Assembly: GCF_014647475.1 (NCBI RefSeq)
Contig: NZ_BMPG01000001.1
Span: forward strand, 1 to 64,000
Reading direction: 5' to 3'
Length of the DNA: 64,000 nucleotides
Source: Halocalculus aciditolerans
GTDB lineage: Archaea > Halobacteriota > Halobacteria > Halobacteriales > Halobacteriaceae
In this document: positions 40,649 through 47,636 of the stretch, one piece after another
Numbering within the stretch: the stretch's first letter is position 1
Layout: every line of letters begins with the position of its first letter
Made by a program: the position numbers and the translations under genes
Notes under the pieces: generated by a model
The model's database searches: none
Told to the model about the DNA's origin: nothing
What the model saw: the letters and a program-made list of their open reading frames with translations, nothing else

Positions 40649-41653
40649 ATGGAGTCGCCGCTCTGGCTGGACACGCACGCGCCGGACCTGGAGGACCTCC
40701 CGCAGCGCGAGGTGCGGGAGCGACTGGGCGACGTGGTGTCGGATCCGGTGAATCTGGTGGTACACGGGCCGGTGGGGTCGGGGAAGACGGCGGCGGTCCG
40801 GGCGCTCGCGCGCGAGGCGCACGAGGACGCGGAGAACGACCTCGTGGAGCTGAACGTCGCGGACTTCTTCGGGATGACGAAGAAGGAGATCGCGAACGAC
40901 GAGCGGTTCTCCCACTTCATCTCCGCGAAGCGAAAGCGCGAGTCGTCGAAGGCCGACCTCATCAATCACGTGCTGAAGGAGTCGGCGTCCTACCAACCAG
41001 TGTCAGGGGACTACAAGACCATCGTGCTCGACAACGCCGAGGCGATTCGGGAGGACTTCCAGCAGGCGCTTCGGCGCGTGATGGAGCGCCACCACGAGAC
41101 GACGCAGTTCGTCATCGGGACGCGCCAGCCGACGAAGCTCATCCCGCCGATTCGCTCGCGGTGCTTCCCCGTGCCCGTCCGCTCGCCCGACACCGACGAG
41201 GCGGTCGACGCCTTAGAGCGTATCGTCGAACGCGAAGCCGTCGAGTACGACGGCGACGGCCTCGAGTATCTCGCGGGCTACGGCGACGGCAACCTCCGGC
41301 GAGCGGTGCTCGGCGCGCAAGCCACCTACGAAGCGGAAGGCGAAGTCACGATGCAGGCCGCCTACGAAACCCTCCAGGATATCGGATACGGCGACCGCGT
41401 GAAGGAAATGCTCGACCACGCCGAGAGCGGGAGTTTCACCGACGCCCGCTCCGAACTCGACGACCTCCTCGTCGACGACGGACTGGACGGCACGGAAGTC
41501 CTCGACGAGATTCTCCGCGTGTCGCGCTCTCGCTACACCGGCTCCGAACTCGCCCGCGTCCACCGCCTCGCCGGCGGCGTCGACTTCGACATGCACGAAG
41601 GCACCAGCGACCGCATTCACCTCTCGCGCCTCCTCGCCGAACTCGGTCGATAG
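40649..41653 (+). CDS. rfcC: Clamp-loader-type AAA+ ATPase (RFC small subunit paralog)
   Basis: A 334-residue RFC small-subunit-like AAA+ protein. Walker A is VVHGPVGSGKTAAVRAL near 36; the Walker B position reads IVLDNAEAIREDFQQALRR near 129, with DNAE in place of the usual DEAD/DEAx, and the arginine-finger SRC motif is IPPIRSRCFPVP near 167. It corresponds to the third RFC-type gene known in haloarchaea. An aggaggt just before the ATG may be a Shine-Dalgarno, with only one base of spacing. The last 59 bases are duplicated downstream at 42205-42263. Confidence 0.9.
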   Translation: MESPLWLDTHAPDLEDLPQREVRERLGDVVSDPVNLVVHGPVGSGKTAAVRALAREAHEDAENDLVELNVADFFGMTKKEIANDERFSHFISAKRKRESSKADLINHVLKESASYQPVSGDYKTIVLDNAEAIREDFQQALRRVMERHHETTQFVIGTRQPTKLIPPIRSRCFPVPVRSPDTDEAVDALERIVEREAVEYDGDGLEYLAGYGDGNLRRAVLGAQATYEAEGEVTMQAAYETLQDIGYGDRVKEMLDHAESGSFTDARSELDDLLVDDGLDGTEVLDEILRVSRSRYTGSELARVHRLAGGVDFDMHEGTSDRIHLSRLLAELGR

Positions 41654-41654
41654 C
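41596..41654 (+). repeat. 59-bp direct repeat, copy 1 (native 3' end of rfcC)
   Basis: The last 19 codons plus the stop of the RFC-like gene and one following base. It is identical over 59 bases to 42205-42263; the offset is 609 bases. Confidence 0.95.
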
Positions 41655-41693
41655 ACCAGAACTCGCGCTCACAAGTGCGATAGCAGCTGTATA

Positions 41694-41705
41694 AGTTATA
41701 AATAG
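41694..41705 (+). promoter_or_regulatory. TATA box inside the inserted segment
   Basis: gttataaataga, 22-33 bases before the ATG at 41727. The local AT-rich stretch stands out from the GC-rich surroundings. Confidence 0.6.
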
Positions 41706-41726
41706 AGGAACAGATATGGTGAGTAA

Positions 41727-42176
41727 ATGGAGTCGAGTGATAGCACCCAGCGACGGGTCGGAGTCGCGGTCGCGTACGGTGTTTCGGCTATCGTCCTCTG
41801 GTTCGTGCTCTTCGTCTCGCTCGGGGCGTTCGTCGGTCTTCCGGTCGTGTTTGCGGGCTTCGTCTCGTCGCCGGTCATCGTTCCGTTCGTGGCTGCGGCG
41901 ACGCTGTTTCGCGTCGAGTGGTTCGAACGCGAGAAGTGGTCGGCGGGGACGACGCTCTCGAAGCGGATCGGCCTCGGTGTCCTCGTCGCCGCCGCGAGCG
42001 GCGTCGTCGGCATTCCCGTGATGGGTGGCCTCTCGGTTGCCGGCGCGCCGTGGTGGCTCGCGTTTCCGCCGGGAGTGCTCCTCGAACTCGTCGTCGGGTT
42101 CGTCGTCGCTCTCAACCTCCTCGCCGACTACCTCGACGCCGACGCGCTCCGCGAGGAGTCCCGGTTCGCGTCGTAG
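41727..42176 (+). CDS. Membrane protein in the inserted segment
   Basis: A 149-residue protein with four hydrophobic segments (VAVAYGVSAIVLWFVLFVSL, LPVVFAGFVSSPVIVPFVAAATLF, IGLGVLVAAASGVVGIPVMG, WWLAFPPGVLLELVVGFVVA) and a charged loop RVEWFEREKWSAGTTLSKR. I do not recognise a family. The gene is bounded by the two copies of the 59-bp rfcC end, so it probably arrived or was duplicated in as a unit. Confidence 0.75.
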   Translation: MESSDSTQRRVGVAVAYGVSAIVLWFVLFVSLGAFVGLPVVFAGFVSSPVIVPFVAAATLFRVEWFEREKWSAGTTLSKRIGLGVLVAAASGVVGIPVMGGLSVAGAPWWLAFPPGVLLELVVGFVVALNLLADYLDADALREESRFAS

Positions 42177-42204
42177 TCGAACCATGACTGCTCGGAATCA
42201 GCAG

Positions 42205-42263
42205 CGAAGGCACCAGCGACCGCATTCACCTCTCGCGCCTCCTCGCCGAACTCGGTCGATAGC
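42205..42263 (+). repeat. 59-bp direct repeat, copy 2 (orphan rfcC end)
   Basis: Identical to 41596-41654, still reading EGTSDRIHLSRLLAELGR plus stop but without the rest of the gene. It adjoins the 3' end of the Trm-G10 gene, so it marks the older gene junction. Confidence 0.95.
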
Positions 42264-42272
42264 GCCGGCGGC

Positions 42273-43256
42273 TCAGCCGAGGACGAGGACGTGGCGGACG
42301 AGCGAGCGGTGGACGCGGCGTTCGAAGCGGTTTTTCACGGTCCAGCCGGCTTCGCGGGCTTCCGCGCGCCAGTCGCGGTCGGCGACGAGGACGCAGCGAC
42401 CAGTCGAGACGCGGCGGGCTTCCGCGAGCGCGCCGGCGACGAGGTCTTTCAGCCCGTGCGTCTCGATTTTCGACTGGCGGCCGTAGGGCGCGTCGAAGAC
42501 GACGCCGTCGACGGAGTCGTCGCGGAGGGCGAGTCGGGTGGCGTCGCCGCGGAGCACGTCGAACGCGGAGTCCGAGAGCTCGCTGAGGTTCTTCCGGGTC
42601 CCCCGAACCATCTTCGCCTGCGCGTCGTTCCCTATCGGTTTCGCGCCGACGATACCGGCTTCGAGGAGGACGCCGCCCGTCCCGCACATCGGGTCGAGGA
42701 GGCGGTCGCCGGGGTCGACGCGCGCGAGGTTCACGAGCGCGCGGGCGTCCAGCGGGGCCATGCTCCCCGGCTGGAAGAACGGCCGGTCCGTGGGCTTGCG
42801 GTCGCCGTAATCGCGGACGCTCGCCGCTTCCAGCCAGCCGAGCGCGCAGACGCCGTCGCCGTCCGCGCGCTCGCTGAAGACCGCGCGGAGCTCGTGGTCG
42901 GGGTCGTCGAGGTCCACCGAGAACCCGCGGTCGACGAGCACGCTTCCTAACTCGCGCTCGACGCGCTGCGTGTCGACGCCGGTCGCGCCGCGGACGTCCC
43001 GCGCGCGGACCGCGACGCTGCCCGCGCGCTCGACGCTCGACGCTTCGAGGAGGACGCGCGCGCTCCCGAGGTCGGCGTCCGTCCGGCCGAGGAGCTCGCT
43101 CGCGAAATGCGTGTACGCGAGCGTCGCCACGCGCCCCGCGTCCAGCACCGTCGCCGTCGCCAGCCCGGCCGAGAACCGGTCGACGCCGCCCGCGGCGACG
43201 CCGGCCTCCGCCGCCGCGAACCCGTCGTCCTCGCCCGCGAATTCGAGGAGGTACAC
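42273..43256 (-). CDS. trmG10: tRNA (guanine10-N2)-dimethyltransferase
   Basis: A 327-residue Trm-G10 that dimethylates G10 of tRNA. The N-terminal THUMP-containing part (YLLEFAGEDDGFAAAEAGVAAGG onward) is followed by a Rossmann methyltransferase: FFQPGSMAPLDARALVNLA, LLDPMCGTGGVLLEAG, and catalytic motif IV VVFDAPYGRQSKIE. The start GTG at 43256 (VYLLEFAG) is chosen because the family begins there; GTG 43265, ATG 43322 or GTG 43340 are alternatives. Convergent with rfcC and the inserted gene. Confidence 0.88.
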   Translation of the reverse strand: MYLLEFAGEDDGFAAAEAGVAAGGVDRFSAGLATATVLDAGRVATLAYTHFASELLGRTDADLGSARVLLEASSVERAGSVAVRARDVRGATGVDTQRVERELGSVLVDRGFSVDLDDPDHELRAVFSERADGDGVCALGWLEAASVRDYGDRKPTDRPFFQPGSMAPLDARALVNLARVDPGDRLLDPMCGTGGVLLEAGIVGAKPIGNDAQAKMVRGTRKNLSELSDSAFDVLRGDATRLALRDDSVDGVVFDAPYGRQSKIETHGLKDLVAGALAEARRVSTGRCVLVADRDWRAEAREAGWTVKNRFERRVHRSLVRHVLVLG

Positions 43257-43408
43257 GCCACCCACTCGCCGCCCCACCCCGTTGAGCGTGCCGATACGAT
43301 ACCCACCCCGCAGCGACCGCATCCGCCAGTCAGTTCGCACGAGCGAAATCGCCGGCTGGCGCTCGGGTTCGACCGAGATATGAAGGCGAGGCTCGCAGGA
43401 CCGCCAAC

Positions 43409-46682: not shown

Positions 46683-47636
46683 ATGAGACGAAAGCTCACC
46701 GCAGTCCTGACCGCGACGCTCGTGCTCACCGCCGCGGCCGCCGGCGTCGGCGCGCTCGGCGGTGCCGTCGCCGCGAGCGGAAACACGACCCTCGGTATCG
46801 ACGTCGACCAGGCGGAGGCCGGGAACGCCGCCACGGTGACCGTCACCGACGACGGCACGGCGGTCTCGAACGCCAGCGTCGACGTCGACGCCGCGAACGA
46901 CTCCACGTACGCGGGCGTCGGCACGTACACCACCGACGCGAACGGCACGGTCGACCTCCCCGCGCCGAGCGAGACCGTGACCGTCACGCTCTCCGCGAGC
47001 GCGCACAACGACACCGCGACGACGACCGCGACCCTCGACGCGGCGAACGACACGAACGCCACGGACGAATCGGAGAACGCGACGTTCGGGCAGCGCGTCG
47101 CCGCCTTCGTCCAGTACCTCCACGACACCGACCAGATGGAGGGGAGCGCCGTCGCCGAGTTCGTCGTCGGACACAACCCCGGGAACGCTGACGACGCACC
47201 GGGGCACGCTGACGACGCACCGGGGCACGCTGACGACGCACCGGGGCACGCTGACGACGCCCCCGGGCACGCTGACGAGAACGAGACCGAGCGTGACCAC
47301 GAGAACGACGGCCACGCGGACGAGAACGAAACTGACCGCGACGAGAACGAGACGGCCGAGAACGAGACCGAGCGCGGTCACGGGAACGGCCACGGCGCAA
47401 ATGCGACCGACGACGACGATGCGGTCGAGCGCGGCCACGGCGACGACCGCGATGACGACGCGAACGCGACCGACAACGACGACGCGGAGCGCGACGGGAA
47501 CGACCAGCAGCGCGCTGACCACGAAGACCGCGAGGACGATGAAGACAACGCGGACGACGAAGACGGAGACCGCAAGGGCGGTGACGCTCGCGGGAACGGT
47601 AACGGCGAGCAGCGCGGCCACGGCAACGGGAAGTAA
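46683..47636 (+). CDS. Secreted acidic repeat protein
   Basis: A 317-residue protein with a Sec-type signal (MRRKLTAVLTATLVLTAAAAG, cleavage probably after GGAVAAS). A Thr/Asn-rich beta domain (TVTVTDDGTAVSNASVDVDA) of about 110 residues follows. Then come four copies of ADDAPGH (47187-47270) and a Glu/Asp/Asn/His-rich, unstructured C-terminal half with many N-x-T/S sites. Function unknown; perhaps a cell-surface or metal-binding matrix protein. No membrane anchor is visible at the C-terminus. Confidence 0.82.
   Translation: MRRKLTAVLTATLVLTAAAAGVGALGGAVAASGNTTLGIDVDQAEAGNAATVTVTDDGTAVSNASVDVDAANDSTYAGVGTYTTDANGTVDLPAPSETVTVTLSASAHNDTATTTATLDAANDTNATDESENATFGQRVAAFVQYLHDTDQMEGSAVAEFVVGHNPGNADDAPGHADDAPGHADDAPGHADDAPGHADENETERDHENDGHADENETDRDENETAENETERGHGNGHGANATDDDDAVERGHGDDRDDDANATDNDDAERDGNDQQRADHEDREDDEDNADDEDGDRKGGDARGNGNGEQRGHGNGK
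47187..47270 (+). repeat. Four 21-bp in-frame repeats encoding ADDAPGH
   Basis: gctgacgacgcaccggggcac occurs three times exactly (47187-47249) and once with changes (47250-47270), followed by a partial unit. The 21-base period keeps the frame, so copy number can vary without breaking the protein. Confidence 0.9.

Follow-up and report, generated by a model that had tools for sequence, protein, structure and literature searches.

A probable small insertion lacking an integrase at the 3′ end of rfcC in a haloarchaeal genome

The window, a 64,000-nt stretch of the Halocalculus aciditolerans genome, carries the clamp-loader gene rfcC followed by a small orphan gene and a convergent trmG10-type gene (Table 1). 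The orphan gene is enclosed by two copies of the rfcC 3′ end, and direct comparison of these copies confirmed the 59 identical bases out of 59 that a preliminary description of the locus had claimed. The first copy comprises the last 19 codons and the stop codon of rfcC. When the duplicate is stretched to 62 nt, 61 of 62 positions are identical, the sole mismatch (A/G) being at position 60, and identity is lost sharply beyond both edges of the 59-bp repeat. The second copy does adjoin Trm-G10, as had been stated, lying 9 nt from the stop codon of the convergent gene. The same description assigned to the 550-bp segment between the copies its own promoter and one membrane-protein gene, and we agree: the segment holds a single plausible gene, with a TATA-box-like sequence ~27 nt upstream of its ATG. 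Leaderless haloarchaeal transcripts have a TATA-like box at a comparable distance before the ATG.

Table 1. Features of the rfcC-trmG10 region (positions in the window).
Feature	Position	Strand	Evidence
Target gene rfcC, for replication factor C small subunit 2; frame intact through copy 1	40649..41653	+	NF009067, E 1.7e-141; haloarchaeal orthologues 60-75% identical
Proximal copy of rfcC 3′ end, attL-like, presumed restored gene end	41596..41654	+	59/59 vs 42205-42263
Inserted segment (cargo), 550 bp, host-like composition, without integrase or RNA family	41655..42204	+	
TATA-box-like TTATAAATAG, putative promoter of leaderless gene	41696..41705	+	Read from the sequence; inferred from known haloarchaeal promoters
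Orphan gene for a 149-aa protein with four hydrophobic stretches, without family	41727..42176	+	
Distal copy of rfcC 3′ end, attR-like, presumed original end, without in-frame start	42205..42263	+	Tail-profile match, E 4e-10
trmG10-type THUMP methyltransferase gene, convergent	42273..43340	-	TIGR01177, E 3e-93; synteny

With tandem arrays and paralogous genes excluded, 1.2 Mb of the contig contain no exact local repeat longer than the 59-bp duplicate, and no third copy is present in the 3.38-Mb genome. The repeat is therefore not a product of chance, given that it is the longest of its kind and that both copies are unique. We also noted a short tandem repeat with a 21-bp unit (ACGCTGACGACGCACCGGGGC) at 47185-47260 of the window, and an intergenic array of ~90-100-nt repeats (GCGATAAGCAGTAGATACGAAGCACTTCTC...) at C1:107430-107800 of the same contig.

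The insert is host-like in composition. Its GC content is 63% (68% for the window), its GC3 is 85% (89% for rfcC), and its dinucleotide signature ranks among the most typical of the window. Composition thus offers no argument for foreign origin, and in this respect the earlier suggestion of a gene from elsewhere is unsupported. We detected no match of the 149-aa protein in Pfam, PHROGs, PADLOC or PDB, and only a sub-threshold one in NCBIfam. A search for further copies gave none: 392 haloarchaeal genomes, together with plasmids, phages and viral contigs, yielded neither a convincing homologue of the protein nor the DNA of the insert (41655-42204). Scans of the segment for RNA families, terminators, folds and tRNAs detected nothing, and fold prediction gave no significant structure for the 59-bp repeat.

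We compared the insert with known classes of mobile DNA. Its ends hold no inverted-repeat pair, and the repeat, being 59 bp long and coinciding with a gene end, is unlike the 2-15 bp target duplications of IS elements, transposons and MITEs with their terminal inverted repeats. The genes that mark casposons (Cas1, PolB), which also carry inverted repeats, are absent from the 550 bp. As in att-type integration, a direct repeat derived from the 3′ end of the target gene is found at both insert ends (59/59 bp); an integrase, another mark of such elements, is not encoded, the membrane protein being the only product. The pair of repeats and the missing integrase are also features of cis-mobilizable elements (CIMEs), and a search for a parent or helper element found none. 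The rfcC reading frame is intact, but the origin of its proximal end cannot be read in the window, where the copies do not differ.

We turn to ~420 haloarchaeal genomes, all from genera other than that of the window. A survey of the rfcC-trmG10 junction was combined with a profile of the 31 C-terminal residues of rfcC, run over 392 genomes; in the 120 genomes that gave three or more matches, the weak additional ones were inspected. Convergence of rfcC and trmG10 is widespread in haloarchaea, and the gap between them spans from overlap to 3 kb. A small membrane-protein gene often lies in it, including in many Halobacteriaceae, so the junction may already have been occupied in the ancestor. This gene has no detectable kinship to that of the 149-aa protein, and derivation of the latter from the syntenic Halobacterium membrane gene by divergence was rejected on profile comparison (hhalign probability 1.7%). 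Minus the insert and one copy, the gap in the window would be 9 nt, and in short-gap genera it is 4-31 nt; an rfcC tree, used to infer the ancestral gap, does not place the genus of the window.

In the survey and the profile run, extra rfcC tails occurred solely beside rfcC, in the window, in G024 and G061 (family f7), in G237 (f4) and in G251 (f8). G412 (also f8, but of another genus) emerged when the G251 insert was used as a DNA query. Five genomes besides that of the window thus share this arrangement at the rfcC end. Dispersal of the tail as an att site elsewhere in the genomes was rejected, all extra tails in the 392 genomes being next to rfcC. No viral contigs bearing the rfcC tail and no plasmid copies of it were found, nor any full element with an integrase at the rfcC 3′ end, either in viral contigs or in ~100 gap regions inspected by eye as clustered ORFs. 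The start of the duplicated tail varies from case to case, from 34 to 80 nt before the stop codon; a single left boundary common to all cases was therefore rejected, and we claim only an overlapping crossover region.

In G024, G061 and G237 the tail is repeated after ~20 nt, with a hairpin-like spacer in common and no cargo. A mini-ORF of 16-21 aa (e.g. MNDRLHVSHLLAELGR) directly behind the rfcC stop at these loci (L015, L071 and L122, respectively) is the repeated rfcC C-terminus. In G024 and G061, every codon difference in it, copy against copy and species against species, is synonymous. The spacer, GTCGTGAGTGAACGAC, is common to different families. A conserved microprotein family was considered for the 16-aa mini-ORF and rejected, as a search with its start-codon pattern gave it beside rfcC only in G024 and G061, and those of the other matches that were inspected lie away from rfcC.

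Two of the cases allow the two gene ends to be told apart. G251 and G412 have in common, at the same place, one 1.8-kb insert without integrase (G251:C1:3313620-3315440, locus L242; G412:C34:59950-61770, locus L274), with 83% DNA identity; it is absent from the relatives of both. The rfcC body of G251 equals that of G062 and G158 over 71 nt, until 49 nt before the stop codon. Past that point, copy 1 is ~71% identical to the relatives and has a new end, GRDG-stop. The copy stranded 1.83 kb downstream has the end of the relatives, GREA-stop, with only 4 differences from G062 over 60 nt, each of them synonymous. The left part of this copy, which includes a TAG, is element-like. The crossover in G251 is confined to 11 nt, GGGACCAGCGA (codons G-T-S-D), and G412 is compatible with this. 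The proximal tail of G412 reads ...VGRLLAELGRNG-stop and the stranded one ...VSHLLAELGRDA-stop, the latter as in G411 and G416. All of the 10 codons that differ between the stranded tail and G411 differ synonymously (random expectation ~29%), so that this was a working gene end until recently, and the proximal tail carries four non-synonymous codon changes. Judged by comparison of the tails with those of each genome's own relatives, the proximal end arrived with the insert and the stranded end is the resident one, in two genera. These same-site cases lend good support to the claim, made earlier for the window, of a restored end with an orphan att-like copy and no integrase.

The inserts of G251 and G412 have diverged by 17% and their rfcC bodies by 14%. 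These values are close, so the insert is an old lineage, not a fresh copy; the locus could have spread by homologous exchange in its flanks. The cargo encodes a protein of 359-372 aa, which bears a Tat-type signal and has ten cysteines towards its C-terminus, and a membrane protein of 117-118 aa, whose gene is convergent. No family model, including those of the halocin families, matched the G251 precursor. A plasmid of Haloferax larsenii encodes a protein 42% identical to it, and an annotated halocin C8-like protein lies 3.5 kb away. The ten-cysteine protein may resemble a halocin precursor. Against the insert of the window, the G251/G412 insert shows no DNA or protein similarity above background.

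Duplicated gene ends are not confined to rfcC. In a scan of 1.6 Mb of the genome of the window (1266 crude gene calls, 95% identity or more), the 3′ end including the stop codon was repeated shortly downstream for 4 of 1266 gene tails, as against 0 of 6715 internal windows (Fisher p = 6e-4). Among start regions there was one such duplication, in a doubtful ORF. The four genes are rfcC and those for dihydroxy-acid dehydratase (ilvD), an aldo-keto reductase and a thiolase; at the last three the inserts are 70-105 bp long and contain no genes. The 3′ end of ilvD is present three times (C1:663600-663930 of the same contig), a 114-bp unit being present twice in tandem, and the final copy ends in TGA and the others in TAA. 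The two minus-strand genes have their 3′ ends duplicated once: the aldo-keto reductase gene (C1:549780-550060) with a gap of ~100 nt and two synonymous changes, and the thiolase gene (C1:451990-452180) with a gap of 83 nt and TAG in one copy, TAA in the other. The same tail scan of 400 kb of G251 gave no case. Set against this background (four genes in ~1590 surveyed), the six cases in ~420 rfcC loci are only a modest excess, so rfcC is one of a wider set of affected genes rather than a singular hotspot. The tiny gene-less inserts at the three other genes also fit a general mutational process.

Taken together, these results make it likely that 41596-42204 (59 + 550 bp) was inserted by recombination at the rfcC 3′ end, as a small segment without an integrase. 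The incoming DNA would have borne its own copy of approximately the last 60 bases of rfcC beside a small cargo gene. Through recombination between this copy and the resident 3′ end, the resident rfcC body would have acquired the incoming tail (copy 1), by which the protein was restored, and the resident tail (copy 2) would have been cut off from its gene and now lie next to trmG10. Gene 3′ ends serve integrative elements as attachment sites in this way. As the cargo includes no recombinase, the enzyme would have been supplied from elsewhere, by a helper element or the host, or else short homology would have driven the recombination. For the window itself, we infer the direction of events, the mobility of the 550-bp insert and the enzyme; the G251 and G412 cases, alike in architecture and in the gene end affected, support reading the copies as a restored end and an att-like remnant. 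The notion of a small mobilised element stands in so far as this architecture recurs elsewhere, and is weakened by the absence of the insert and its protein from the databases searched.

Two mechanisms are viable, mobilisation in trans, as had been suggested for the window, being one of them. A mini-element mobilised in trans, or the decayed rest of a larger one, may have been integrated site-specifically by the tyrosine recombinase of another element, a mechanism that we would stop just short of calling probable. Att-site integration yields short repeats bounded by a gene end, restores the frame and leaves the resident end stranded. The copies, 34-80 nt long, are close in length to crenarchaeal att sites of 29-69 bp (PMC6563490), the 11-nt crossover of G251 and its compatibility with G412 point the same way, as does the same short form in two genera, and thaumarchaeal elements are known that enter protein-coding genes at the 3′ end and supply the stop codon (PMC6563490). 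What speaks against it is that no helper integrase was found, nor any viral contig or plasmid with the rfcC tail, and that the 59 bp of the window have no significant structure.

Insertion driven by homology, with no site-specific recombinase, would also fit the lack of a recombinase, the small size of the inserts and the number of different target genes. A DNA fragment from another cell, with the rfcC 3′ end and the small gene downstream of it, would have undergone ordinary homologous exchange within rfcC at one end; at the other end, short or micro-homology would have joined it ahead of the resident stop codon. Insert sizes from ~20 bp to 1.8 kb, several different targets in one genome, the absence of a recombinase nearby and the host-like composition are consistent with this. 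A donor with the rfcC tail and a membrane gene is also easily imagined, since many relatives have such a gene directly behind rfcC, and flank exchange could have spread the locus with the G251/G412 insert. Random joining, however, should also yield long duplicated tails, and those observed are uniformly short; moreover, the inserts of G251 and G412 end identically, yet each stranded tail belongs to its own lineage. We regard this route as possible but on the whole doubtful.

A local event is unlikely. Tandem duplication of the rfcC tail with downstream DNA, followed by deletion, or the pasting of a tail copy behind a pre-existing syntenic membrane gene, would find precedents in the tandem ilvD unit and in the syntenic membrane gene of many relatives. 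It would, however, take two steps, with the 9-nt distance to trmG10 arising by coincidence, and does not agree with the differing ancestry of the two tails in G251 and G412, with the different stop codons of the ilvD and thiolase copies or with the lack of detectable kinship between the protein of the window and the syntenic one. An assembly artefact, which a draft genome of 27 contigs might suggest, is very improbable, since the contig is 1.25 Mb long, a usual read is longer than the 59-bp repeat and the pattern recurs in unrelated genomes.

Returning to insertion at gene ends, a wider picture might tentatively be drawn, in which haloarchaea harbour integrase-less 'gene-end cassettes' below 2 kb, each with a replacement 3′ end of a conserved gene and little or no cargo (membrane proteins, halocin-like precursors). 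These would enter matching gene ends, stack in tandem (as at ilvD) and cross genera, moved by an enzyme supplied in trans. In a limited search of the open-access literature we found no report of rfcC as an integration target; if the insertion reading is true, this replication clamp-loader gene is a new target gene. Some orphan genes between core haloarchaeal genes would then have come as tiny gene-end insertions, which searches for mobile elements based on integrases cannot see. The stranded gene end provides a simple sequence test to detect such insertions and to date their arrival. The Tat-exported, cysteine-rich, bacteriocin-precursor-like protein of the 1.8-kb relatives would, moreover, tie the process to competition between strains.

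Homology-facilitated illegitimate recombination would join the DNA by homology on one side only and duplicate a short gene end; it leaves unexplained the uniformly short repeats and the identical insert ends in two genera. CIMEs have lost their integration and transfer genes and kept attL and attR (PMC5704250). The insert resembles them in having att-like repeats at a gene 3′ end and cargo without integrase or transfer genes, and differs in that CIMEs are bacterial, decayed ICEs or IMEs, whereas the present insert is archaeal, 0.55 kb long (1.8 kb in G251 and G412) and without a known parent element. The haloarchaeal virus BJ1 integrates in a protein-coding gene, that for HMG-CoA reductase (PMC8371274); a haloarchaeal protein-coding gene is the att site in both cases, but BJ1 is a complete virus and the insert has no viral or integrase gene. 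In Thaumarchaeota, elements such as NitEve-E2 lie in the 3′-distal region of protein-coding genes (PMC6563490). These are multigene elements (proviruses, casposons, ICEs and cryptic ones) with repeats mostly below 26 bp, and rfcC is not among their listed targets (PMC6563490). They are like the insert, however, in that insertion occurs near the stop codon and the element restores the frame with a stop codon of its own, and the gene for dihydroxy-acid dehydratase is both a target in Thaumarchaeota (PMC6563490) and end-duplicated in the genome of the window.
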